A stretch of 32,724 bases of DNA from NCBI GenBank assembly GCA_020344395.1, contig CP070824.1, positions 2,649,599 through 2,682,322 on the forward strand, given 5' to 3'. Within the stretch, counting starts at the first letter, position 1; each line of letters opens with the position of its first letter. Below are positions 6,141 to 25,836 of this stretch, one piece after another. This DNA comes from Candidatus Zixiibacteriota bacterium. Lineage in GTDB: Bacteria > Zixibacteria > MSB-5A5 > GN15 > FEB-12. The translations under genes and the position numbers were made by a program. Under the pieces are notes generated by a model that worked only from the letters and a program-made list of their open reading frames with translations, ran no database searches and was not told the origin of the DNA.

Positions 6141-8462
6141 ATGAGCTATCTCAAGGTTCTGCTGCGTAACGCAGTCAAGCAAAAGGGCTATTCATTCATC
6201 AACATCCTGGGACTGGCCATCGGCATTGCCGTGTGCAGTCTGATATTCCTGTGGGTACAGGATGAACTGAGCTACGACGCCTATCATGAAAACCTTGACA
6301 ACATACACAAGGTGGTGTTGAGGGTCGAGGGAAAGTGGTGGGATTCCAGTAACTGGGCCCTGTCTCCTTTACTGAAGCAGAACTATGCGGAGATCGAGAG
6401 AGCCACTAGGTATGCCTCCCGGAACTTGCTTCTGAGATATGGGACGAACAATTTCTATGAGCAGGGTGCCCTGGTTGATGAGGATTTCCCTGAAATATTC
6501 ACTTATCCGTTCATCGAGGGTGATCCGAAGACAGCCTTATCCACAACGAACTCCATCGTCCTTACCGAGACGACCGCGAAGAAGTACTTTGGTTCTGAAG
6601 ATCCGATGGGCAGAACACTCAAGCTTAACAACGCTACGGATCTGACGGTGACCGGAATCATAGCAGACGTGCCATCCAACTCTACTTTCCGGTTTGGTTT
6701 TCTCGCTCCGGTAAGACTATTTGGGGAGGAGAGACTGAACAGCTGGGCGGTGGAGAGTTTTTCATACGTCCTCGTAAATGAACGCACATCAGTGCCGGAC
6801 TTGGTTGGGAAAATATCCGGTATCGTAATGGAACATGATACCAGAACCGACCAGAAGGTGGAAGTCTTCCTTCGTCCCTACAATGAACTTCACCTGTATT
6901 CACTGACCGGCACAGGTCCCATATTATACGTTTACCTGTTTTCCGCCATCGCCGTGTTCATTCTTCTGATTGCATGCATCAATTTCATGAACCTCACCGT
7001 GGCCAGGGCCGGCCGGCGGGCGAAAGAGATCGGCATGCGCAAGGTTGCCGGCGCGACGAAGCGAAACCTGGTCGTACAGTTCTTCGGCGAATCGATAGTG
7101 TTGTCCTTCGTCGCTCTTCTAGTAGCCGTACTGTTGATCAAGTTGTTCATTCCGGCTTTCAACGACCTGTCGGGCAAGCAACTGGCTCTGGATCTAGCCC
7201 GCAATTCAACTCATCTTCTGGGTTTACTGCTGATAACACTCCTTACCGGGCTGGTATCCGGAAGCTACCCTGCCCTGGTGCTCTCGTCCTTCAAGCCGAT
7301 AACCGCGATAAGGGCATCCACGAGTTCCGGCTCCAGCAAATCCATGTTTAGAAAAGCCCTGGTGATCAGCCAGTTTGCGGCAACGATTGTCCTGGTGATT
7401 GGCTCGCTGGTTGTCTTCAGACAACTGGACTACATCAGCAGTAAGGATCTGGGTTTCAACAGAGACCAGGTGGTCGTCGTCCGTCTTAACAACAGTCTGA
7501 GGGAAAGCCTTGAGTCTTACAAAAATGAAGTCAAGAATCTGCCGGGCGTTATCAATGTCACCTGTGCATCCAGCATACCAACCAATGTGGGGAACATTAA
7601 CCCGGTCTACTGGGAAGGCCAGACTGCGGATGACTACCAGACCATAAACTGGGTCGCCATGGATTGTGATTATTTCGACACCTTTGAGATGACCATGGCT
7701 GCAGGCAGAGCATTCTCGAAAGAACTGGCCGCTGATCGTCAGAACTATGTCATAAACGAAGAGGCGGCGAAACTGATGGATATGGAATCGCCCGTCGGGA
7801 AGATGTTCTCAATCTGGGACAGGGAGGGTCAGATAGTGGGCGTGGTCAAGAATTTTCATTCCCGCTCACTTCACAATGGAATTGTCCCTGTCGTGTTCAC
7901 CATGGATCAGCACTGGGATTGGAGTCTGGCTAACGTTTTTGTGAAGATAGCACGGATTGATGTATCGGGAACTCTGGATCGTCTGAGAAACACCACTCTT
8001 AAGTTCGCCCCCGAGTTTCCTTTCGATTATTCCTTTCTCGACGAACATTTCGAGAGACAGTATCGCGGTGACCGGCGGGTCGGAACGATCTTTGAGTACG
8101 CCAGCTACATTGCCATCTTCATTTCTTGCCTGGGTCTTTTCGGTCTGACCACCTATATGGTCGCCCGGAGGACAAAGGAGATCGGCATTCGAAAAGTTCT
8201 CGGTGCTTCAAAACCCGGTATCGTCACGATGCTGCTCAAGGAGTTTCTGTCCTTGATCCTCATCGCCAATGCGATTGGTTGGCCTGTTGCCTACCTGGTG
8301 ACGAGGAAGTTGATGAGTAGCTATGCTTATCAGGCGGACGGTAACATCTGGTTGTTCCCCGCCGCCGGCATTCTCTCATTGCTATTAGCCTTTCTGACCA
8401 TCAGTATCCAGACTCTAAAGGCGGCCCAAACGGATCCTGTTGAATGCCTGAAGTACGAATAG
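6141..8462 (+). CDS. FtsX/MacB-type ABC transporter permease, duplicated-core form
   Basis: The 773-residue protein has the layout of the large FCB-group permeases: an N-terminal helix after a basic start, a periplasmic MacB_PCD domain (about 45-250), a three-helix FtsX core (about 275-400, with AREIGMRKVAGA-like RAKEIGMRKVAGA), a second helix and periplasmic domain (about 410-640), and a second FtsX core (about 650-770, TKEIGIRKVLGAS). Both EIG(I/M)RKV coupling segments that dock onto the ATPase are intact. No ATPase gene lies nearby, so it must use a subunit encoded elsewhere. Likely roles are lipoprotein or peptide export or envelope stress relief; the substrate is unknown. ATG follows GGAGTGTGGAG. 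A same-length paralogue lies at 20567-22888. Confidence 0.93.
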   Translation: MSYLKVLLRNAVKQKGYSFINILGLAIGIAVCSLIFLWVQDELSYDAYHENLDNIHKVVLRVEGKWWDSSNWALSPLLKQNYAEIERATRYASRNLLLRYGTNNFYEQGALVDEDFPEIFTYPFIEGDPKTALSTTNSIVLTETTAKKYFGSEDPMGRTLKLNNATDLTVTGIIADVPSNSTFRFGFLAPVRLFGEERLNSWAVESFSYVLVNERTSVPDLVGKISGIVMEHDTRTDQKVEVFLRPYNELHLYSLTGTGPILYVYLFSAIAVFILLIACINFMNLTVARAGRRAKEIGMRKVAGATKRNLVVQFFGESIVLSFVALLVAVLLIKLFIPAFNDLSGKQLALDLARNSTHLLGLLLITLLTGLVSGSYPALVLSSFKPITAIRASTSSGSSKSMFRKALVISQFAATIVLVIGSLVVFRQLDYISSKDLGFNRDQVVVVRLNNSLRESLESYKNEVKNLPGVINVTCASSIPTNVGNINPVYWEGQTADDYQTINWVAMDCDYFDTFEMTMAAGRAFSKELAADRQNYVINEEAAKLMDMESPVGKMFSIWDREGQIVGVVKNFHSRSLHNGIVPVVFTMDQHWDWSLANVFVKIARIDVSGTLDRLRNTTLKFAPEFPFDYSFLDEHFERQYRGDRRVGTIFEYASYIAIFISCLGLFGLTTYMVARRTKEIGIRKVLGASKPGIVTMLLKEFLSLILIANAIGWPVAYLVTRKLMSSYAYQADGNIWLFPAAGILSLLLAFLTISIQTLKAAQTDPVECLKYE

Positions 8463-9010: not shown

Positions 9011-11236
9011 ATGACAGGTAAAGCAGTAGGTTGGGTAGGTATCGGATCGGCAGTTGCGATCCTCTTGGGAGGATTTCTGGGGTACCGCGTGCCGTTGTTC
9101 ATGGAGACATTCGGTTTCATTGGTGATTTGTTTGTGTACGGTCTTTTATTCGTATCACTTACATGGATTGTAATCAGCGCGATTGCGGGCATCTCGCAAA
9201 TGGGAAATCGGGGCAAACTTAGCCGGGCTGCAGGAAAGGCCCTGCTGTATTTCTTTGCGCTTGGTCTTGCCGGCAGCATCATCGGCGTGGTCGTCGCCGA
9301 GATCATCCGTCCGGGTGACGGTATCGGTCACCTGATGACCGACCTCTACAAGGACTGGGCACCAGTCAAACCGTTTGCCGTCTCCTGGCCGGTGGTCGGC
9401 GGGATAGTGTTTGTGGCTGTGATGCTCGGAGGCGGACTGATCTCGTTTGGTGCCAGAGCCAGAGCGATCACAAACCTGTTGAGCCAGTCGCAGATGCTGT
9501 TGCAGAAGGTAGTGGCCGGAATGACCCAGGTGGCGCCGCTGGGTCTGCTGTTCCTTGTGGGGGCTCTGGTGGCCCGCGATGATTTCGTGAGATCGGCCGT
9601 TGGCGGGCTGTTCGGTGCCGGGCCTTCATCTTCTGTGCTTTTTGCGCGCACGGCGGCCAGTTATCTCTTAACGGTCGTGGCGGGATTTCTGTTTTTGAGC
9701 GTAGTAGTACTGCCTCTAATTCTTAAGATTTTCGGTCGGCGCTCCGTGCTGTCTCTGCTCAGCTCTCTCGGCTCAGCCTCACTCGTTTCCTTCGGTGCTT
9801 CATCTTCGCTGGCCGCTCTGTCGTTGACCCAATCAGCGCTGGCTGATAAGCACCATATCGATAACCGGGCGGTCGGGTTGGTCCTTCCCTTCGGTATGCT
9901 GGCCGGTACTGCGGCAACAGCTTTGTGCGTGGTAGTCGGCACTCTCTTTCTCACCCAATCAGCGGATATCCAGCTGTCCGTGTGGCAGTACATCCTGCTT
10001 ATGGTATTACCGCTGCTGTTGGCGTTCGGACGGGTCGGACTGCCGTACCCGCAGGTGCCTGTCATGCTCGTTCTGATCGCCGCGCTCGGTCTGCCTACGG
10101 TTGTGGCGGCCGGGCTTGGGATGATACTAGTGGTAGAGTGGCTCGTGGACCGAATCAGAAGTGCCGTAAATACCTGGGCGGACTCAGTAGGAGTGGCTGT
10201 GATCGCAGAAACGTTTGAGTTCAAGACGGCGCGATCCACGAGAGGCCCGGCTCAGGAACGTCAGCCCGCACGGGCGGGCCGACCGTTACGCGGAAAACCG
10301 GACCGACCGACGCCGGAACGCCGTCGCGTGGACAGTCGCACGAGCAGGCGCGGACGGGACAGAAAAGATGATCGCAGGCACACACCTCGGTCGACCGGCC
10401 GAACACCGGTACGATCTGCCGGAACCTCTCTTGGCCGGCAGAGACCGACCCCTTCGGCATCATCGCCATCGACCAGGCGATCCCCCTTTGAAATGTCTAC
10501 CGATAGAGCGCCGGAGTATGATATGGATCTGACCGGTCCGGACACAGGCGGAGCCGCCAGAGATCAGGCAGCGACGCCGGCAAAACAGAGGCGGAACGGT
10601 CGTGAAAAACCAACGCAGGACAGCAGGACCCAGGAGAGGGGAGCATTTCAGCGCGCCTCCCAGACGAGACCTGAAGCGAAGCGCGGCAAGCCTGGCGACC
10701 GGAAGCCGGAGCCGGAAACTCCGGCGGTGAAAGCGGTTTCAGACGGACGGCTGAGCCCGGAGGTCATTGCCCGTGAACTGAAAAAGGTCTCGGCTCAGAT
10801 TGATCGCAGCGAGGTCAACGGGTCCGCAGACAAGAGCGCGCCCTCTGACAAGCCGCCGGAGAAAAGTCACTCGACCGAAGTTCCTGATTCCAGCGCGGAC
10901 GAAAACGTGTCACTGCCGGTCGCAGCCGATACACCCGGAGACAGGGAAGTTAATGAATCGGTCGAGTCACCGGAGAGTATCATAGTTGACAAGCCGAGTC
11001 ATGAAAGAGCGGACGATTCGAAAACCAACGAGCAGATTCCGAAACCGGACCCGACCAAGGGCGATGCTGAGACAGCAGAAATCAGGTACGGTCGCGGACC
11101 AACCAGGCGCGGCGATGCCATGCGTAAGAATAGTCCGCCAGTTAACAATGACAGCGAGGAATCTGACGTGAAAAACGGTTTTGCTCAGGAGGAAATCAGT
11201 TCGTTCGGAAGAGGCAAGCGCAAGAGGACGAAGTGA
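9011..11236 (+). CDS. DAACS (glutamate/dicarboxylate symporter-like) membrane protein with long disordered C-terminal tail
   Basis: Residues 1-400 are polytopic and align by eye with the dicarboxylate/amino acid:cation symporter fold: an N-terminal scaffold ending in IIRPG, the hairpin-1 serines (S264-S266 in SFGASSSLAALSLTQ), a helix-7 segment, and a helix-8 motif D380-R-I-R383-S384-A-V-N387 equivalent to D394/R397/T398/N401 of GltPh. The NMDGT sodium and substrate motif of helix 7 is replaced by M296-L-A-G-T300, so the key Asn and Asp are lost. Residues 405-741 are an Arg-, Ser-, Pro- and Glu-rich, apparently disordered cytoplasmic tail. It has one likely helix (577-600, SPEVIARELKKVSAQ) and two related motifs, EIRYGRGPTRR (690-700) and EISSFGRGKRKR (728-739). 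Transport specificity is unknown; an altered or regulatory function is possible. Confidence 0.78.
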   Translation: MTGKAVGWVGIGSAVAILLGGFLGYRVPLFMETFGFIGDLFVYGLLFVSLTWIVISAIAGISQMGNRGKLSRAAGKALLYFFALGLAGSIIGVVVAEIIRPGDGIGHLMTDLYKDWAPVKPFAVSWPVVGGIVFVAVMLGGGLISFGARARAITNLLSQSQMLLQKVVAGMTQVAPLGLLFLVGALVARDDFVRSAVGGLFGAGPSSSVLFARTAASYLLTVVAGFLFLSVVVLPLILKIFGRRSVLSLLSSLGSASLVSFGASSSLAALSLTQSALADKHHIDNRAVGLVLPFGMLAGTAATALCVVVGTLFLTQSADIQLSVWQYILLMVLPLLLAFGRVGLPYPQVPVMLVLIAALGLPTVVAAGLGMILVVEWLVDRIRSAVNTWADSVGVAVIAETFEFKTARSTRGPAQERQPARAGRPLRGKPDRPTPERRRVDSRTSRRGRDRKDDRRHTPRSTGRTPVRSAGTSLGRQRPTPSASSPSTRRSPFEMSTDRAPEYDMDLTGPDTGGAARDQAATPAKQRRNGREKPTQDSRTQERGAFQRASQTRPEAKRGKPGDRKPEPETPAVKAVSDGRLSPEVIARELKKVSAQIDRSEVNGSADKSAPSDKPPEKSHSTEVPDSSADENVSLPVAADTPGDREVNESVESPESIIVDKPSHERADDSKTNEQIPKPDPTKGDAETAEIRYGRGPTRRGDAMRKNSPPVNNDSEESDVKNGFAQEEISSFGRGKRKRTK

Positions 11237-11292: not shown

Positions 11293-12162
11293 GTGATGAA
11301 TAGTCTCAAAGTGTCGCTCTTGATGATAGGCATGATGCTGCTGCTCATGTGGGTGGGTTACTACGTGGGGGGGCAGTCCGGTCTGGTGGTTGCCTTCGTG
11401 ATAGCCGCAGTGCTCAATTTTGCCACATACTGGTTTTCGGATAAGGTTGTTCTGCGGATTTATCGGGCCCGCGAGGTCACCTCGGCCGATCATCCACGGC
11501 TGCACGGGATTGTCAACAGGGTCGCTCAACAGGCCAGTCTGACCGTACCGCCGCGAGTTTGTGTGGTGCCGTCACGTGCGCCCAACGCTTTTGCCACGGG
11601 GCGTAGCCCGGATCACGCAGCGGTAGCGGTAACGGAGGGGCTACTCGAGTTGCTCAATGATGAGGAACTGGAAGGTGTTATAGGTCACGAGATTGCACAC
11701 ATCACCAATAAGGACATGCTGATTGGCACCATCGCGGCCACCTTTGCTGGTGCTATCGGTATTCTGGCGTCCATTGCCAGATGGGGAGCAATTTTTGGCG
11801 GTTTAGGCCGCGGTGATGACAACCGGGGTGGGGGTATCGGCCTGCTGATTGCCGCTATCGTCGCCCCATTGGTAGCCTTGGTTTTGCAGATGGCGATCTC
11901 CCGTCAAAGGGAATACAAGGCTGACGCCCGGTCAGGGCAGATCACCGGCCGGTACCTTCCGCTGGCCAGAGCGCTGGAGAAGTTGCATCGGGCACCCGTT
12001 AAAATGAGGCTGGATGACCGTCCGGCCACCGCGCATCTAATGATCGCCAACCCTCTTTCGGGTCGGGGCTTATCGGCCATTTTTTCCACCCATCCCCCCG
12101 TCGAGGAGAGAATTGCCCGGCTTGAGAGACTTGCTCAGCGGGTGCCGTATACTAATGTCTGA
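11293..12162 (+). CDS. htpX: HtpX-like M48-family membrane zinc protease
   Basis: This 289-residue protein matches HtpX, an inner-membrane metalloprotease that clears misfolded membrane proteins, with the active site facing the cytoplasm. It has two N-terminal membrane helices, then PNAFATGRSPDHAAVAVTEGLL, the zinc motif H132-E-I-A-H136, a second hydrophobic pair, and the third ligand E207 in RQREYKAD. The end has the usual THPPVEERIARL. The residues after the third ligand (ADARSG) differ from the common ADxxGA. Tandem GTG (11293) and ATG (11296) starts are both possible; TAAGGAT upstream favours the GTG by spacing. It is first in a close row with the CNNM, YqaA-like, CDF and RlmD-like genes. 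Confidence 0.9.
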   Translation: MMNSLKVSLLMIGMMLLLMWVGYYVGGQSGLVVAFVIAAVLNFATYWFSDKVVLRIYRAREVTSADHPRLHGIVNRVAQQASLTVPPRVCVVPSRAPNAFATGRSPDHAAVAVTEGLLELLNDEELEGVIGHEIAHITNKDMLIGTIAATFAGAIGILASIARWGAIFGGLGRGDDNRGGGIGLLIAAIVAPLVALVLQMAISRQREYKADARSGQITGRYLPLARALEKLHRAPVKMRLDDRPATAHLMIANPLSGRGLSAIFSTHPPVEERIARLERLAQRVPYTNV

Positions 12163-12221: not shown

Positions 12222-13538
12222 ATGGCTGACCGTCTGCCAATAGAGTTGTTGGCCATCCTGATTCTGGTGCTGGCAAACGGCTTCTTTGCCCTTTCGGAAT
12301 TTTCCATTATCGCCAGCAGAAAGAGCCGACTTCGCGAGGATGCGGCGCGTCGTAAAATGGGGGCGGCCAAGGCGCAGGAACTCCGGGACAACCCGGAACG
12401 GTTTCTTGCGACGATCCAGGTCGGTATAACACTGGTCGGCGCTATGCTCGGGGTGTTCAGTGGCATTACCCTAGTAGGCGAACTGCAGAGCTTTCTTTCG
12501 CGGCTCCCGGTGCCGTTCGTCGCCCGTGTTGCCGCACCTCTGGCCTATGGGATCGTAGTAGTGGCGATCACTGTTCTGTCGGTCGTGTTGGGCGAACTGG
12601 TGCCCAAGTACATCGCTCTTTCGTTCCCCGAGAAGTATGCGCGGCTGGTCGCCGGGCCGCTGAAGCTGTTCGTTCAGGTGACCTCGTTTCTGTCCCGTTT
12701 TCTGGCGGCTGTCGCATCGCTGATAGTGAGGGCCCTTGGAGTCCGACGGGGCCAGATGGACAGCACTGTATCCGAGGAAGAGATCAACCTGCTGATTCGC
12801 CAAGGGAAAGACGAGGGCGTGTTCGGTGAGACCGAACAGAGCTTCATAAGGTCAGTATTTGACTTTACCAATTCTACGGTCAAGCGGGCCATGAAACCAA
12901 GGGCCGACGTAGTCGGCTTTGAAAAAGGAACTGCTCCGCAGCAGATCGTCAATGAGATCAATAGACACGGCTACAGCCGGTATCCGGTCTACGACGATAC
13001 CATCGACCGCGTTCTGGGCATAATCTATGCCAAGGACCTGATCGGCGTTGATGTCGATTCTCGGCGCTTCTCGATCGAGAAAACCATGCGGAAACCGTTG
13101 TTTGTCCCGGACTCCATGCCTCTGGCTCGGCTGCTCAAGGAGTTTCAGAAGGGAAAGAACCACATCGCCATTGTCCTTGACGAGTACGGCGGTACCTTCG
13201 GGATTATTACGCTCGAAGACATACTTGAGGAACTGGTTGGCGAAATCAGGGATGAGTATGACGATGAGGCCGCTCCTCTGGTCAGGCATTCCGACCAGGT
13301 TGTCTTCGCCGACGGAACCGTCTGGCCCGGTGAGGTCAACGATTTACTTCAGTCAAATCTCCCGGAGGAGAAGGCGGAGACCCTTGCAGGCCTGTTCATT
13401 GATACCGTCGACAGGTTTCCCGATAAGAACGAATCGATCCAGATTGAAGATGTTCGGCTGACGGTGCTGGCCAAGGAGAAGAACCGAATCCTCCGTTTGA
13501 AAGTGGAGAAGATCCAGTCGGAGCAACCAGAATCCTAA
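12222..13538 (+). CDS. CNNM/CorC-type (HlyC/CorC family) divalent-cation transporter
   Basis: The 438-residue protein has the full CNNM/CorC architecture. The DUF21 membrane domain is about residues 1-185, with [21 protein letters not shown] and [17 protein letters not shown] tandem CBS pair covers about 205-325, with [18 protein letters not shown], and [30 protein letters not shown] CorC_HlyC domain covers about 345-430. These proteins export or sense Mg2+ or related cations; the hemolysin label of the family is historical. A perfect AAGGAGG lies 12 bases before the ATG. The gap to the HtpX-like gene is 59 bases and to the YqaA-like gene 16 bases, so co-transcription is likely. Confidence 0.93.
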
Positions 13539-13554
13539 CGCCACGACCGACCCC

Positions 13555-14232
13555 ATGAGTTCTATGAGAAGACTGCTGGGAATACCGTTCAAGTGGAGCC
13601 GACAGCTATACGACTGGGTGCTGAGCTGGGGTGAATCGAAGCACGGACAGACAGCGCTCTTTTTGCTCTCAGGGGCTGAAGCCTCGTTCTTTCCTGTTCC
13701 CCCGGATGCCCTGCTGATCGCCCTGTGTATGGGTGCCCATAAGAAATGGCTGCGTTTTGCTCTCGTCTGTTCCGTCGGCTCGGTGGTGGGCGGTGCCCTT
13801 GGGTATTTGATTGGCTCTGTGGCATTCGAACTGATCGGTCAGAGGATAATAGACTTTGTCGCCTCACTGTCAGGAGTAAACTCGACAGAAATGCTTGAGA
13901 CGGCTCAATTCTGGTTCAATGAGAAAGAGATATGGGGGATGAAAGTCGGCGCGTGGGCGGTCGGTATAGCCGGGTTCACGCCGATTCCATACAAAGTGTT
14001 CACGATCGCGGCTGGTTTCTTTGAGATGAATTTCGGAATATTCCTGATCGCTTCGGCGGTGAGCCGCTCGGCACGGTTCTTTGTTGTGGCTGGACTCATC
14101 GGCCTTTTGTTTGAAAAATACGGAACTCGGATTCAGCAGTTCATCGACCGGTATTTCAATATTCTGGCCGTACTCTTCATGGTGTTGCTCGTGCTCGGTT
14201 TCCTGTCCCTGAAGGCCCTTAAGGGAGAGTGA
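13555..14232 (+). CDS. YqaA-like membrane protein (SNARE-associated/VTT domain)
   Basis: This 225-residue inner-membrane protein matches the YqaA branch of the DedA/VTT superfamily. It has GAEASFFPVPPDALLIALC near the start, two glycine-rich re-entrant stretches, GIAGFTPIPYKVFTIAAGFF in the middle (the family's P-x-P-x-K turn), and a final hydrophobic helix. The superfamily includes lipid scramblases and undecaprenyl-phosphate flippases, but the YqaA branch is functionally unassigned, so a role in lipid-carrier or envelope homeostasis is inference. Two in-frame ATGs (13555 and 13564) are possible and neither has a clear Shine-Dalgarno. It starts 16 bases after the CorC-type gene, and its stop overlaps the CDF start by one base. 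Confidence 0.88.
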   Translation: MSSMRRLLGIPFKWSRQLYDWVLSWGESKHGQTALFLLSGAEASFFPVPPDALLIALCMGAHKKWLRFALVCSVGSVVGGALGYLIGSVAFELIGQRIIDFVASLSGVNSTEMLETAQFWFNEKEIWGMKVGAWAVGIAGFTPIPYKVFTIAAGFFEMNFGIFLIASAVSRSARFFVVAGLIGLLFEKYGTRIQQFIDRYFNILAVLFMVLLVLGFLSLKALKGE

Positions 14233-15152
14233 TGGCGCATTCCCACGGTTTACATGAGGTTTCACGAGGTCGGCTTGTCTGGACTCTGCTGGTCAACTCA
14301 GCCATCACCGCCGCCGAATTCATAGGTGGTTTTATCTCCGGATACCTGGCTCTTATTGCCGACGCCGTCCACAATCTGTCGGATGTTGCCGCCCTGGCCC
14401 TTGCCTGGATGGGAGCCAGGGGCTCGGCCATGCCGGCCACCAAGAAATCAACATACGGATACAAGCGTATCGAGGTCATGACGGCGCTGATCTCGGCGGC
14501 TGCGCTGGTCGTAATCGCGATCTTCATATTTTTTGAAGCCTATGATCGCTGGATGAATCCAACCGAGCTAACGCAGCCATGGGTCTTCTTCACCGTGGCT
14601 GTCATTGGCCTGCTCGGGAACATCTTCTCTGTAGTCATCCTGTCGCCTGAAAAAGGCAAATCACTTAACATGAAGACCGCCTTCCTGCACATGCTGTACG
14701 ATGCCGTTTCTTCAGTTGCCGTGATTATCGGAGGAATTGTCATTCTGAGCACCGGATGGGTGTGGGTCGATGCCTTTCTGTCGTGTGTGATTGCAATGAT
14801 GATACTCTGGTCGTCGTATCTGGTCATCAGGGAAGCCGTCTGGATATTCCTCGAAGCCGTACCGCCCGGCCTTGAGTTTGACACCGTCATGAGGGCAATC
14901 GGTGAGATCTCTCGTGTGCAGGGGGTTCACCACCTGCATATCTGGTCGTTGTCTTCGCGAGATGTCGCCATGTCCTGCCACGTATGTCTTGGCGAAACCG
15001 ACTATCAGGACGGCCCCGCAGTCATCGCTGAGATTAGCGAGATGCTGTGTCGACGCTTCAGTATCGATCACTGCACAATTCAGCTTGAAAAAGACGACTG
15101 CGCCGAGTCAGGTCCGCCCTGTACACCCGGCAGAGATTCCGAAGATGCCTGA
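14232..15152 (+). CDS. Cation diffusion facilitator (CDF), probable Zn2+ exporter
   Basis: The 306-residue protein is a CDF/SLC30-type H+-coupled metal exporter. Six membrane helices are followed by a cytoplasmic ferredoxin-like domain (from about residue 200, VQGVHHLHIWSLSSRDVAMSCHV). The transport site is complete: H47-x-x-x-D51 in helix 2 (DAVHNLSD) and H153-x-x-x-D157 in helix 5 (FLHMLYDAVSS). An HDHD tetrad of this type usually goes with zinc, sometimes with cobalt or cadmium. An N-terminal MAHSHGLH and a C-terminal CAESGPPC add possible metal ligands. The ATG at 14232 shares a base with the YqaA-like stop (TGATG) and has AAGGGAGAG just upstream. Its last eight bases overlap the RlmD-like gene, so translation is probably coupled. 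Confidence 0.94.
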   Translation: MAHSHGLHEVSRGRLVWTLLVNSAITAAEFIGGFISGYLALIADAVHNLSDVAALALAWMGARGSAMPATKKSTYGYKRIEVMTALISAAALVVIAIFIFFEAYDRWMNPTELTQPWVFFTVAVIGLLGNIFSVVILSPEKGKSLNMKTAFLHMLYDAVSSVAVIIGGIVILSTGWVWVDAFLSCVIAMMILWSSYLVIREAVWIFLEAVPPGLEFDTVMRAIGEISRVQGVHHLHIWSLSSRDVAMSCHVCLGETDYQDGPAVIAEISEMLCRRFSIDHCTIQLEKDDCAESGPPCTPGRDSEDA

Positions 15153-16506
15153 CAAGGAACCGGTGCAAATTGAGATCGAGGATCTTGCCTTCGACGGCAA
15201 ATCAGTCGGGCACCTTAACGGCAAGGTCGTATTCTGTGACCGAGGCCTACCGGGCGAGACGGTTCTGGCCAGGATAACGCGCTCCAGGGCTCGCTATTCT
15301 CAAGCAGCAGTAGAAGAAATAATCAGCAAATGTACCGACCGAAGAGAACCGGTATGCCCGCATGTGAGACAATGCGGTGGCTGCACCTGGCAGGATCTCA
15401 TCTATGCAAGGCAGCTCGCATGCAAGCAACAGCAGGTGGTAGCTTGTTTGGAGCACATCGGTGGTCTGGAGAATACGGATGTTGCCGCCATCAGGCCGTG
15501 TGAAAGCGAGTTCTTCTACCGCAACAAGATGGAGTTCTCATTTCACGTCAGACCCGACAACGGATTCAACCTGGGGCTGCATCGACGCGGTCGCTTTGAT
15601 GACATCTTTGACCTGACCGAGTGCCATCTTCAGTCCGATCTGTCCAATCGCATTGTCGCCTGGACGAGAGAATTTGTACGAAGCCGGGAAATACCGGTAT
15701 ATGACGTTCGTGACCATACCGGGTTTATGCGTTTCCTGGTCATTCGCGAGGGTAAACGGACCGGTCAGGTACTGGTCAACCTGGTCACAAACGTCGGGAG
15801 CATGCCGTTTAAGGACATTTTGGTCAGTTCGATGTGCGTCGAGTTTCCGCAGGTTACGACAATTGTCCAGAATCAGACCGCGAAAAAGGCTAATGTCGCC
15901 GTCGGGGAGTCTGAAGAGATCCTTTATGGTCCTGGCTATATTGAAGAGGAAATGTGCGGTTTGCGTTTTCGAATTATGTCAAACTCTTTCTTTCAGACCA
16001 ACAGCCGCCAGGCCGAAGTGCTGTATGAGACGGGATTCGAGTTGCTTCAACCGGTCAGTACCGATCGACTCCTCGACCTGTATTGTGGTACCGGCACGAT
16101 TGGGATTCTGGCCGCCTCGAAAGTCGCTGAGGTGATTGGAGTTGAGCTTGTTCCGGACGCCATCGAGATAGCCCGGAAGAACAGCGCCCTCAACAATATC
16201 GGCAATATAGCTTTCTTTCAGGGCCACGTGAAGGATGTTCTGAACTCAGATGCCCTGGCCGGACAGGCATTTGATGCTGTGGTGGTAGATCCGCCGAGAG
16301 CCGGACTCCACCCCAGGGCGATGAAGCGGCTGATGAGGCTCAGATCGGACAAACTGCTCTATATATCCTGCAACCCCGCTACCTTCTCCCGGGACGCCAG
16401 GCATATTGTCCGGCAGGAATACTCGCTCCACAGGGTTATTCCTGTGGACATGTTTCCGCAGACTAAACACATCGAACTGGCGGCCCTTTTTCAACGTACA
16501 AAGTGA
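15145..16506 (+). CDS. rlmD: RlmD/RumA-type 23S rRNA (uracil-C5)-methyltransferase
   Basis: The 453-residue protein transfers a methyl group from S-adenosylmethionine to C5 of a uridine in RNA. An N-terminal TRAM domain (about 5-60) is followed by an iron-sulfur cysteine set (C71-x5-C77-x2-C80, plus C160). A Rossmann methyltransferase domain contains LLDLYCGTGTIGI, VVDPPRAGLHP, and the catalytic C409 in YISCNPATFSRD. The ATG at 15145 is chosen because it gives the standard TRAM start (MPDKEPVQIEIEDLAFDG); a longer upstream frame only re-reads the CDF gene. It overlaps the CDF gene by eight bases. RlmD acts on U1939 of 23S rRNA in Escherichia coli. RlmC or RlmCD activity cannot be separated by sequence reading alone. 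Confidence 0.88.
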   Translation: MPDKEPVQIEIEDLAFDGKSVGHLNGKVVFCDRGLPGETVLARITRSRARYSQAAVEEIISKCTDRREPVCPHVRQCGGCTWQDLIYARQLACKQQQVVACLEHIGGLENTDVAAIRPCESEFFYRNKMEFSFHVRPDNGFNLGLHRRGRFDDIFDLTECHLQSDLSNRIVAWTREFVRSREIPVYDVRDHTGFMRFLVIREGKRTGQVLVNLVTNVGSMPFKDILVSSMCVEFPQVTTIVQNQTAKKANVAVGESEEILYGPGYIEEEMCGLRFRIMSNSFFQTNSRQAEVLYETGFELLQPVSTDRLLDLYCGTGTIGILAASKVAEVIGVELVPDAIEIARKNSALNNIGNIAFFQGHVKDVLNSDALAGQAFDAVVVDPPRAGLHPRAMKRLMRLRSDKLLYISCNPATFSRDARHIVRQEYSLHRVIPVDMFPQTKHIELAALFQRTK

Positions 16507-20566: not shown

Positions 20567-22888
20567 CTACTCACACCTGAGCGCGTCGCTGGGGTTGGCC
20601 TGGGCGGCTCGGAGGGCATAGTGGCCGGCGGTGGAAAGAGCAATCAGCAGCGTCAAACCTCCAGCCACAGCGAAGGTCAGCCAGGAGGGCGAAATTGCAT
20701 AAGCGAATGAAGTCAACCAGCGGTCGGCTGCATAGTAGGCCAACGGCCAGGCAATCAGGCAGGCCAGACCGACCCCAACGATAAATTCTGTTGTGATCAG
20801 ACGCAGGATGGCAGTCACGGAGGATCCCAGCACTTTGCGGATCCCGATCTCACGGGCACGTTGCCGCACGGCATATGACACCAGTCCGATCAATCCCAAG
20901 CACGACATAAAGACTGCCAGAATCGAGGCCGCCGTCAACATGCTGGCCGTTCGCCGCTCCGACCGGTAGTGAGCCTCCAATCGCTCATCAAAAAAGCGTA
21001 CTTCTACGGGATAGTCCGGGACATACTTCTTCACTATTGCCTGAATGGCCCTGGCCGTACCCACGATATCAGCCGGGGCCACTCTAATCGCCAGGTTGTC
21101 GCTCCAACCGGGCCGTATGGCCAGCACCAGAGGCTGTATTTCATAATGCAGGGAACGATGATGGTAATCCTTGACCACGCCAACGATGCGACCGTCCTGA
21201 CCTGACAGAGAAAACCGTTTGCCCACCGGCGAGGTCATGTTCATTGCAGCTACCGCCGCTTCATTCACTATGTAGCCACTTTCCAGATCAGTGGCAAAGT
21301 TGGGCGAGAAAAATCGCCCCTCGACCATCTCGATACCGAAAACTTCGGCGAAGCTGTACCCGGCTGATTGCACACCCACACATATCTCCTCACCCTCCAA
21401 CTGGCCTTCCCAGGCAACGTTGCGGGTGGTGGATTCACGTCGGTCCAGCATGGTGTTGGTAAACGTATATCTGAGCACATTCGGATTGGCGTCCAGATCA
21501 TTCATGATTGGCTGCAACTGAGCGAAGATGTCGCTCTGCAGCGTCAGATAGAGAATCGCCTCGTGATTGTAGCCTAAGTCCTTGGATTTCAGATAGTCCA
21601 TTTGATGGTAGACCACCATGGCACCTGTTATCAGGAATATCGAGATACTGAACTGACCCACCACCAGAGCCCGGCGAATCAGTGAGGTGCGGCCGCCCCG
21701 GCCAGACGAGACCCGGAAAACCCTCGTGGGCTGAAATGAGGAAAGAACCAGCGAAGGGTAGATGCCGGCTATGACACCCGTAATCAGCGCAACTACCAAC
21801 ACCCCGACAACCAGCACTGGATCGGTGAACACTCCTGATGACAAATTCCGATTTACCAGCGCCTCAAAAGGCTCTCGGAGAAATTCGGCAAGGCTGAGCG
21901 CCAGTATGGCCGAGACCGTCGCCACGACAACCGTCTCGCCCATGAATTGTCGGATAAGGTGTGATCGCCGTGCGCCGACAACCTTTCTGATGCCGACCTC
22001 GCGAGCGCGATCGGAAGCACGGGCGGTGGCCAGGTTGACATAGTTGACGCCGGCCGACAGCAATATCAGCAAGGCCGCCCCTATGAATACATAGATATAG
22101 ACGATGGGTGGGTTACCGTCCCCACTCCCGGCGAGATATATTTCCCTGATCGGCTCCATTCGCATCTGAACCTCAAACCCTCTGGCGTCGGCGAATTGCT
22201 GAACCTTGGCCAGCAGGGCCGTTACATCGGTACCGGGCTTGACCATGACGTAATTCCACATGTCACCATCTTCCCAACTGTCCATCGGGGGGAACCAGGA
22301 GAAAATGACATTCAGGAACCTCACGTTCACCAGGGCTTCGAATTGGAGATGGGAATTGAAAGGAACGTCCTTCATGACGCCTGTCACCATCACATTTTGG
22401 CGTTTCTCGATACTGATCGTCTGGCCGATTGGATCTTCGTCACCGAAAATGCGTGCCGCCAGGCTCTCGCTCAGGACAATCGATTCCGGTGATTCCAGCA
22501 CTCGGGCGGCATCACCCTGAAGGAGGTCAAACGAAAACATGCTCAGAAACGACGGGTCGACGCAGTGCACCCGAGCATTGCACGATTCATCCTGGTGGCC
22601 GATTTGCCACCAGCGAGGGTGAACGCGTGCGGTGTTCTCAATTTCGGGGTACGACTCTTTCAGAAATGGTGCCAGGGCTGTCGGTCCCTGTCGGCTGGAA
22701 TCGTGGTAGACCTGGTAGATGTACGGGGCACTGGTGTGAAAAGAGTCATAGCTCAGTTCGCCGCTGACCCAGATCGATATCATGATCGAACAGGCCAGCC
22801 CTACTGTGAGTCCGAGTATACTGATAGCCGATTGACCTTTGCGCCTGAGCAGGCTTCGAATAGCTGATTTGAGAAAGTTGTGTAACAC
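20567..22888 (-). CDS. FtsX/MacB-type ABC transporter permease, second copy
   Basis: This 773-residue permease has the same length and domain order as the one at 6141-8462: an N-terminal helix (SILGLTVGLACSIMISIWV), MacB_PCD domain, FtsX core with AREVGIRKVVGARRSHLIRQ, a second periplasmic half, and a final FtsX core with AREIGIRKVLGSS. The two proteins clearly share ancestry but differ at most positions, so the duplication is old. No ATPase gene adjoins it. The start is a GTG at 22888 preceded by GGGAGGG on the minus strand. The PD40 propeller gene ends 136 bases upstream, so the two could share a transcript. The substrate is unknown; peptide or lipoprotein export is the usual inference for this family. 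Confidence 0.93.
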   Translation of the reverse strand: MLHNFLKSAIRSLLRRKGQSAISILGLTVGLACSIMISIWVSGELSYDSFHTSAPYIYQVYHDSSRQGPTALAPFLKESYPEIENTARVHPRWWQIGHQDESCNARVHCVDPSFLSMFSFDLLQGDAARVLESPESIVLSESLAARIFGDEDPIGQTISIEKRQNVMVTGVMKDVPFNSHLQFEALVNVRFLNVIFSWFPPMDSWEDGDMWNYVMVKPGTDVTALLAKVQQFADARGFEVQMRMEPIREIYLAGSGDGNPPIVYIYVFIGAALLILLSAGVNYVNLATARASDRAREVGIRKVVGARRSHLIRQFMGETVVVATVSAILALSLAEFLREPFEALVNRNLSSGVFTDPVLVVGVLVVALITGVIAGIYPSLVLSSFQPTRVFRVSSGRGGRTSLIRRALVVGQFSISIFLITGAMVVYHQMDYLKSKDLGYNHEAILYLTLQSDIFAQLQPIMNDLDANPNVLRYTFTNTMLDRRESTTRNVAWEGQLEGEEICVGVQSAGYSFAEVFGIEMVEGRFFSPNFATDLESGYIVNEAAVAAMNMTSPVGKRFSLSGQDGRIVGVVKDYHHRSLHYEIQPLVLAIRPGWSDNLAIRVAPADIVGTARAIQAIVKKYVPDYPVEVRFFDERLEAHYRSERRTASMLTAASILAVFMSCLGLIGLVSYAVRQRAREIGIRKVLGSSVTAILRLITTEFIVGVGLACLIAWPLAYYAADRWLTSFAYAISPSWLTFAVAGGLTLLIALSTAGHYALRAAQANPSDALRCE

Positions 22889-23945: not shown

Positions 23946-24429
23946 CGAAATGTTCCTTTCAAGTATCGTCTATCTTTACGTTTATGGGCAAGTTTTGTTG
24001 TTACTCAAGCTATTATCTCCCAACGAGTTCCCGTGGTCGATGAATAGACAGTTTTCACTGGAAATGCGAACTCTGCATAAGTTTGGGGAGAGTGATATTG
24101 GAGCCGCTATTGCCTACTCAAGCCCGAGCCGCATCCGAAAGGTTCTGTATTTGGTAACGTCAACCTCACCATTGTTGATAAGCCGTTGCAATACAGGGGG
24201 GTACTTCATGGATATAAATCCGGCCAAAGTGTAGGCCACCGGCGGATGGGTCAGAGTTTGAATTATCCATTTCAGTTATGTGAATTATGTATAATTAGAG
24301 CGCTTCCAACCACCATGTGATTGACAAGATCTGGAACACAAAATACTACAATGCGTATAAGGCTTTATCAATGATTCAGGTTTGCGGGATCATCCGCTTG
24401 ACGACAACAGGAAGAGAGGAGTGGGATTG
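23946..24429. other. AT-rich divergent intergenic region
   Basis: These 484 bases separate the divergent PD40 and ankyrin-peptidase genes. Candidate promoter parts for the plus-strand gene are a lone consensus -10 TATAAT at 24290-24295 and a TTGACA at 24321-24326. On the minus strand, bases 24114-24275 are open for 54 codons and end in a protein-like stretch (NNGEVDVTKYRTFRMRLGLE), but have no ATG until 24209. That may be a gene remnant. Nothing else is recognised. Confidence 0.4.
24321..24349 (+). promoter_or_regulatory. Candidate promoter for the ankyrin-peptidase gene
   Basis: A perfect TTGACA (24321-24326) is followed by 17 bases and TACTAC (24344-24349), a poor -10. A consensus TATAAT at 24290-24295 with no good -35 is the competing candidate. 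Either would give a leader of roughly 75-130 bases. Confidence 0.3.
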
Positions 24430-25836
24430 GTGAGTAAGTTGCGTCTGGTTGTAATTGTGGGGCTATTGACTTTGTCCGATGGGCTTCTGGCAAATGATAT
24501 TCTCGAGGCATCCAGATCAGGCGATTTGGAATTAGTGCAAACTATCCTTGATAGTGATAAAACCGCCATAGGAATGAGTAATGATCGAGGTTCGACAGCT
24601 CTGCATATTGCTGTCGCAAACGGACACATTCGAATTGTTGAATTGCTCCTGGATCTGGGAGCTGATTTAGAGGCGATTGATGTCGATGGAGACACTCCGC
24701 TTATGCGTGCAGCCATCGGTGGTCATTCAGAAATCTTCAAGTTGCTGCTATCCAGAGGTGCTGATGCGCACATTAAGAATATCAACAAGCACGATATTCT
24801 GCACTATGCAGTCTTAGGGGGATCAGTTGAGATTATCGATCATACTCTGGATATGGGAAGAGATATCAATGCCAAGAGCAGAGATGGATCAACGCCGCTT
24901 TTTCAAGCCGTCTGGAAGAACGATAGGGAAGTTGCCAGGTTTCTGCTGGAGAAGGGGGCTGATATTGAGGCTCAGAACAATCATGGATTCACACCCCTTT
25001 ACGTGGCTCGTGCGGTGAGCAATGTAGACATGGCTCAGCTGTTGGTGGATAATGGAGCAAATGTAGAGGCTCCGGTCGGATTTGCTGCGCGCGCGCTCAA
25101 TAACCAGGGCTTCGATTGGAAAACACGGTCATCGGACCACTTTCGCGTATATTACTTGCCCGGATCGGTTGCTGAGCGTGAGATCGACACACTTATAAAA
25201 CAGAACGAGGCTCATCTGGCATCGCACCTGGCTTTACTTGGAGTGACAGACTATGACAAGGTTGTTGATTTATTTTATTGCGACTCCCGGGATCAGGTCA
25301 AGGAGATCTGTTCGTATCCAGTCAGAGGTATTTCACAACCCGGAAGCAGGACTGTCCTGACCATTCGAAACGATGAAGAAATTGGCCGTGACGCTCACGA
25401 GATCATGCACGTCGTTTCTTCTGACTTGTGGGGCGGCTGGGAATGGAACCGAGCACCTGCCCTGTCATGGCTGTCAGAAGGACTGGCGTGCTACGCCGAC
25501 GAACCTTGCAATGGCTACGAGCCGGCGGAACTTGCAGCGCATATACTGAAGAATACGGGAAATTCGGTCCCGCTTGATTCCCTGGCAACTGATTTCAGGC
25601 AGCACCCCGAAATGATTGGGTACATGCTGATGGCTAGCTTTGTGCATTTCGTCCTTGATCAACACGGAATCGAGCTCTTCCACAACCTTTGGAATGAGGG
25701 TTACGACGGCTTTGAAAGGGTTTTTGGAAAAGATGTGGCTACGGTCGAGCAAGAGTGGCACAAATATATGGAAAAGAAATACCCGAACCCGCAGGTTCCC
25801 GATTGGGCCGATTTGACAGAACACGGATGCAAGTGA
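24430..25836 (+). CDS. Secreted ankyrin-repeat protein fused to a gluzincin-type metallopeptidase domain
   Basis: A GTG at 24430 with AGGAG eight bases upstream gives a 468-residue protein with a signal peptide (KLRLVVIVGLLTLSDGLLA). A TTG at 24382 would bury that signal behind 16 charged residues. About six ankyrin repeats fill residues 24-225 (RGSTALHIAVANGHIRIVEL, DGDTPLMRAAIGGHSEIFKL, DGSTPLFQAVWKNDREVARF and others). The remainder resembles Peptidase_MA-type gluzincins: H323-E-I-M-H327 and, 23 residues later, E350 in WLSEGLACYAD, the expected three zinc ligands and catalytic Glu324. An ankyrin array exported together with an intact zinc site is unusual. A role in substrate recognition or attack on other cells is speculation. 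It has several cysteines and an AT-rich composition. Confidence 0.82.
   Translation: MSKLRLVVIVGLLTLSDGLLANDILEASRSGDLELVQTILDSDKTAIGMSNDRGSTALHIAVANGHIRIVELLLDLGADLEAIDVDGDTPLMRAAIGGHSEIFKLLLSRGADAHIKNINKHDILHYAVLGGSVEIIDHTLDMGRDINAKSRDGSTPLFQAVWKNDREVARFLLEKGADIEAQNNHGFTPLYVARAVSNVDMAQLLVDNGANVEAPVGFAARALNNQGFDWKTRSSDHFRVYYLPGSVAEREIDTLIKQNEAHLASHLALLGVTDYDKVVDLFYCDSRDQVKEICSYPVRGISQPGSRTVLTIRNDEEIGRDAHEIMHVVSSDLWGGWEWNRAPALSWLSEGLACYADEPCNGYEPAELAAHILKNTGNSVPLDSLATDFRQHPEMIGYMLMASFVHFVLDQHGIELFHNLWNEGYDGFERVFGKDVATVEQEWHKYMEKKYPNPQVPDWADLTEHGCK

Follow-up and report, generated by a model that had tools for sequence, protein, structure and literature searches.

The window, that is, the whole stretch of 32,724 nucleotides analysed, encodes a tailed SDF/SLC1-fold protein of 741 amino acids (9011..11236, + strand), in a single open frame that has orthologues. 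The protein is real, conserved and unusual, a known fold in a new arrangement. Its Na3 sodium site is lost and a separate, ordinary copy keeps this site, so it is probably not a sodium pump but a membrane anchor or sensor acting via its tail. The reading proposed here, to which a probability of about one half is given, is that of an SLC1-fold member in which Na+ coupling has gone and whose maintained function would lie in a tail that docks a putative partner. The earlier note had likewise suggested a sensor or scaffold following loss of the sodium site. This is the best supported reading on three grounds: purifying selection acts on the changed domain, the tail motif has outlived the ion site, and there is a canonical paralogue; it is from these features that we infer sensing or scaffolding. 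Below, f1 designates the family of the window and f2-f4 its sister families in the same order of uncultured Zixibacteria.

The symporter fold recognised in the earlier note is borne out by profile and structure. In a Pfam profile search, the window ORF matches PF00375 (SDF) over residues 15-400 with 146.5 bits against a cut-off of 27.9, no other domain being found in the 741 residues, and the PDB matches obtained with phmmer are EAAT1, EAAT3, ASCT2, an 'aspartate transporter' (9bgz) and GltPh. In an AlphaFold2 model computed from the window protein and 43 relatives, the membrane half is well predicted, most blocks of residues 1-400 having a pLDDT of 70-98, and the tail lies mostly below 50 except for a helix at residues 583-602 (pLDDT ~85). 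The comparison with known folds that the note had advocated retrieves GltPh among the Foldseek matches of this model, together with outward-facing EAAT1, ASCT2 and EAAT3 and the ancestral uncoupled aspartate transporter. The best match is 9i7m (EAAT1; E 1.4e-15, TM-score normalised by target 0.80); target-normalised TM-scores reach ~0.85 and the rmsd is often 6-7 Å, so that the fold is well established and the arrangement of the domains is less certain. On the basis of PF00375, AlphaFold2 and Foldseek, residues 1-405 (9011..10225, + strand) are assigned to a membrane domain with the SLC1/DAACS elevator fold. An insertion of ~17 residues around residues 200-215 (approximately 9605-9660) is observed in the window protein and its nearest relatives, and the tailed f1 copies have ~4 extra residues between HP2 and TM8 (approximately 10091-10115).

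The position of the helix-7 NMDGT motif had to be revised. The earlier note had read it as MLAGT (residues 296-300; 9896..9910, + strand), a register that is off by three and is ruled out by two sets of alignments. The phmmer alignment with EAAT1 pairs VLPFGMLAGTAATAL with VLPVGATINMDGTAL and places NMDGT at GTAAT (residues 299-303; 9905..9919, + strand), three residues further downstream, and a gap-free alignment with orthologues of 43-47% identity (VLPLGSVLNSGATAFC and VAPLGPVLNVGATALC versus VLPFGMLAGTAATALC) gives the same column, which reads NSGAT, NVGAT and NTGVT in the near orthologues L041, L042 and L043, respectively. The claim that the Na+-binding Asp and the neighbouring Asn are gone survives this correction: N310 of GltPh aligns with G299 and D312 with A301, T314 being kept. 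The extent of the loss had nevertheless been understated. In TM3 (residues 81-85; 9251..9265, + strand), the columns of Y89, T92 and S93 are F, L and G, T92 aligning with L84 and S93 with G85, and the side-chain ligands of Na3 are therefore lost. In GltPh, this site is formed by T92, S93, N310 and D312 together with the backbone of Y89, and neither the N310A nor the D312A mutant shows uptake above background (PMC3302783). Without the Na3 site, the usual Na+-coupled uptake would not be possible in the window protein and would be carried out by the tail-less canonical paralogue.

The residues of the substrate and Na1 sites are present. The HP1 serines 264-266 (9800..9808, + strand) and the D380/R383/S384/N387 set listed in the earlier note are all found, S265 being invariant in 42/42 tailed f1 copies. 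In TM8 (E376-D391; 10136..10183, + strand), D380, R383 and N387 correspond to D394, R397 and N401, and D391 is the equivalent of D405; the S277 equivalent is also kept, and the substitutions are D390 to E and T398 to S. The window protein is therefore similar to GltPh/GltTk and EAAT/ASCT (SLC1, DAACS; PF00375) in its fold, its HP1 serines and the D/R/N/D set of TM8, and differs from them in the loss of N310, D312, T92 and S93 and in the possession of a 336-residue disordered tail with conserved motifs.

Across the family, the changes are unevenly distributed. The best-kept columns among the 42 tailed f1 copies are S277 (42), D405 (40), N310 (39), R397 (36), D390 (35) and T314 (33, plus 6 with Ser), and the columns of T308, M311, T352 and D312 are as variable as the average or more, D312 being kept in only 11 copies and lying at the 75th percentile of variability. 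This column pattern points to a selective loss of Na3/Na2 features with retention of a ligand/Na1 core, and not to uniform decay. The window protein is one of three tailed f1 copies in which N310 is also lost, and may for this reason be more decayed than its kin. By a permissive count, all ten core classes are kept in a single one of the 42 copies; most keep 6-8 and the window protein 6.

That the tailed gene is a decaying, dispensable duplicate freed by the canonical paralogue was already disfavoured and is very improbable, although its divergence is indeed faster than that of the paralogue and its motif variants are many. Between the same pairs of f1 genomes, the tailed membrane domains have a median identity of 36%, compared to 70% for the short paralogues and 67% for HtpX; tailed f4 pairs share 68% when both are intact (HtpX 75%) and 44% when one of them is changed (HtpX 78%). 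However, dN/dS values calculated by the Nei-Gojobori method for close pairs are 0.08-0.16 for the changed f1 membrane domains, which are thus not pseudogenes, compared to 0.03-0.18 for the short copies and 0.25-0.48, where estimable, for the f1 tails. The changed membrane domain evolves faster yet stays constrained. Moreover, the open frames are intact, the tail motif and the neighbourhood are conserved, and in G039, a genome 98% complete and in one contig, the changed tailed copy is retained as the sole SDF match. The short canonical SDF copy of the window's genome (G000:C1:3269703-3270164, L085) has the NMDGT motif and, over its readable 161 residues, shares 90% identity with L096. It is broken by a gap of 100 N, which means that the single 'contig' is a scaffold.

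The membrane half probably still adopts the elevator fold and, having equivalents of S277, T314, D394, R397, N401 and D405, could hold an amino-acid or dicarboxylate-like ligand. These residues are mostly kept among the tailed f1 copies, and the main rival explanation is accordingly a Na+-uncoupled facilitator that would still let an amino acid or dicarboxylate pass down its gradient through elevator movements, the tail serving only to place or regulate it. Judged from the residues, retention of the R397/D405/S277 core is just as compatible with transport that continues uncoupled, which counts against an anchor or sensor. Uncoupled relatives are known: according to PMC12668577, the ancestor AncInt needs no Na+ to bind and transport aspartate, and all Na+ ligands are kept in only 16% of its present-day clade. 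Nevertheless, 6/42 tailed f1 copies have F, L, Q or K in place of R397 and D394 is changed in 14, and yet the R397F clade is still constrained (dN/dS 0.08-0.10); in addition, the T398 position is mostly Ala. The AncInt relatives often adjoin genes for amino-acid enzymes, as described in the same article, whereas the neighbours here are HtpX, CNNM, VTT and CDF. On balance the facilitator is a possible but rather doubtful explanation.

By analogy, the closest precedent is nevertheless this Na+-uncoupled AncInt and its present-day clade (AncInt and ExtInt, aspartate transporters of Bacillota; PDB 9bgy, 9bgz, 9bh0), for which PMC12668577 discusses uncoupled transport, adjacency to amino-acid enzymes and, with Na+ ligands no longer kept, compensation by other copies. 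The window protein differs from it in phylum and in its neighbours; AncInt itself still has all Na+ ligands, the parts of the article consulted describe no long tail, and the HtpX neighbourhood is absent. With the tailed proteins, loss of Na+ ligands combined with retention of the substrate core is met a second time, now outside Bacillota.

Coupling to another ion, which the earlier note had also considered, is not favoured. In the HP2 tip AFGRVG (residues 338-343; 10022..10039, + strand), R341 occupies the position of GltPh T352, and an Arg or Lys is found there in the window protein, L041 and L042. This or another charge might replace bound Na+ in a transporter driven by H+ or K+, and E. coli GltP and DctA, which belong to the same family, are annotated as H+ and not Na+ symporters. 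However, the latter two keep N310 and D312, change D405 to N and have no long tail, whereas the window protein shows the reverse, with A301 and D391. Only the nearest relatives of the window protein carry a charge at T352, whereas the D312 column varies throughout the family. A switch of coupling ion is quite unlikely.

In the reading preferred here, the maintained function would reside in the tail. This region (10226..11233, + strand) comprises 336 disordered residues without a Pfam match, with a basic N-terminal half (net +22) and an acidic C-terminal half (net -6), and the same order of charges is typical of the tailed relatives. In the established topology of SLC1 proteins, the region after TM8 is cytosolic, and we infer the same location for the tail from its position. 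The earlier note was right that a very long, charged tail is joined to the membrane half, and its reservation that a frameshift might reveal a separate tail gene does not apply: the tail is in frame with the membrane domain in ~59 orthologous loci, which rules out a frameshift or gene fusion. The tail ORFs of L065 (G057) and L043 (G025) contain runs of X; an apparent IspG fusion in the former and a tail anomaly in the latter were rejected, these runs being read as assembly gaps.

Several short motifs are conserved within the tail. The protein ends with FGRGKRKRTK (11204..11233, + strand), conserved as [FW]GRx[KR][KR] and situated 8-11 residues from the end, FGRx[KR][KR] prevailing in f1 and WGRx[KR][KR] occurring in f2 and f4. 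An [FWY]GR occurs within the last 22 residues in 54/59 tails, compared to a mean of 0.28 and a maximum of 3 in shuffled sequences. The f1 tails have a further [FY]GR motif, in most cases at a distance of 44-59 residues from the end, represented in the window protein by YGRGPTRRG (11087..11113, + strand), 49 residues before the C-terminus. Motif counts also single out SPF, present in 27/41 f1 tails (2.5 expected from shuffles) and here in the form SPFEM (residues 491-495; 10481..10495, + strand). The predicted short helix at residues 583-602 (10757..10816, + strand), within LSPEVIARELKKVSAQIDRS, has a strict pattern that recurs in 8/41 f1 tails (0.01 expected). Among the loci read after pattern searches (42 sites for the F form and 17 for the W form), there was no second clear C-terminal copy of [FW]GRx[KR][KR] in the genome of the window; a 130-aa reading frame in L193 ending in FGRARRRCAVGR was discarded as not an evident gene.

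On the preferred reading, the basic stretch adjoining the bilayer is followed by acidic sequence and, in f1, by a pair of [FYW]GR-basic motifs, one of them C-terminal, which would dock a putative partner, and the whole would serve as a membrane anchor or a ligand-responsive sensor. Transceptors such as yeast Gap1, Mep2 and Sul1, or bacterial CbrA, which combines a transporter domain with a histidine kinase, similarly associate a transporter fold with a possible cytosolic signalling output, but the cytosolic part of the window protein is disordered and carries short linear motifs in place of a catalytic domain, and signalling is here only a possibility.

The distribution of the tail does not coincide with that of the site changes. 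A search of relatives and of the phylum found long-framed SDF proteins (~590-890 aa) only in the order of the window, in families f1-f4, and tail-less copies of ~400-500 aa in the other families of the class examined. All ten core site residues are intact in 15/19 tailed copies of f2-f4, the exceptions being those of G046, G039, G052 and G089. Two of these, the f4 copies L083 (G052) and L084 (G039), have no VLPLG stretch in front of the motif. Loss of the motif and presence of the tail are therefore separate events that did not arise together, contrary to the co-occurrence suspected in the earlier note; the 15 intact orthologues rule out a tie between them. This is most simply explained by a tail common to the order and a later loss of the site, chiefly in f1. 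In the three sister families the tail is borne mostly by apparently intact transporters and may do no more than regulate or localise transport, which counts against the preferred reading. In a tree built without the site columns, the 42 tailed f1 copies form one clade (SH-aLRT 100) adjoining f4 tailed copies, and the short copies of f1 fall with other tailed copies of f4. In this 'quick' tree, which has several long branches and no Bacillota rows, the tailed family lies within the SDF copies of Zixibacteria; the duplication history that it suggests is provisional and may include transfer. The f1 tail-less paralogues listed read NMDGT, except five that belong to a distinct tail-less NQNGT clade found across the class (L097, L098, L160-L162, L151-L154, L159), with Asn at the D312 position and its own TM3 pattern.

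The family offers a natural experiment on the reasons for retaining an SLC1 protein after sodium coupling goes. Among dozens of orthologues at the same locus, the ion site may be intact or changed to various degrees, at times strongly, and the C-terminal motif is fixed, which would make transport and non-transport roles separable.

The analysis also brought to light a conserved SDF-HtpX-CNNM neighbourhood. In the window, the tailed gene is followed on the + strand by genes for the M48 membrane protease HtpX (11293..12162), a CNNM/CBS/CorC_HlyC protein (12222..13538) and a VTT-domain membrane protein (13555..14232), all conserved neighbours, and by a frequent one encoding a CDF cation efflux protein (14229..15152). 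In the four families HtpX comes next, CNNM is usual, and VTT, CDF and TrmA are frequent. As called, the CDF gene and the TrmA-family ORF (14902-16506) overlap by 251 bases, and the TrmA start probably lies further downstream. Literature searches for tailed or HtpX-linked SDF proteins returned none.

It has to be considered whether the tail acts as an adaptor in membrane quality control or for HtpX, with the SDF part as a mere anchor. Tail and htpX adjacency are both seen only in the order of the window, and no htpX match was found near tail-less SDF copies elsewhere in the class within the flanks of 1-2 kb examined. The argument is, however, one of adjacency alone, the loci outside the order having these short flanks, and genus g21 (G021, G079, G080, G083) kept the tail and lost the adjacency, tailed SDF and htpX being on different contigs; the tailed gene away from htpX counts against the preferred reading as well. 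Such an adaptor is unlikely. A broader scheme may tentatively be put forward: the fold would have been split by duplication in one family, the short paralogue keeping Na+-coupled transport and the tailed copy keeping motif-based docking beside HtpX, with the ligand core as sensor. If this holds, the tailed copy would represent an SLC1 'pseudo-transporter' in bacteria, with short linear motifs as its means of signalling or tethering.

Elsewhere in the window, two MacB/FtsX-type (ADOP-like) permeases of 773 aa each lie on opposite strands (6141-8462 and 20567-22888), and an ankyrin-repeat protein (24382-25836) shows a weak C-terminal match to Peptidase_MA_2 (29.1 bits against a cut-off of 32.4).
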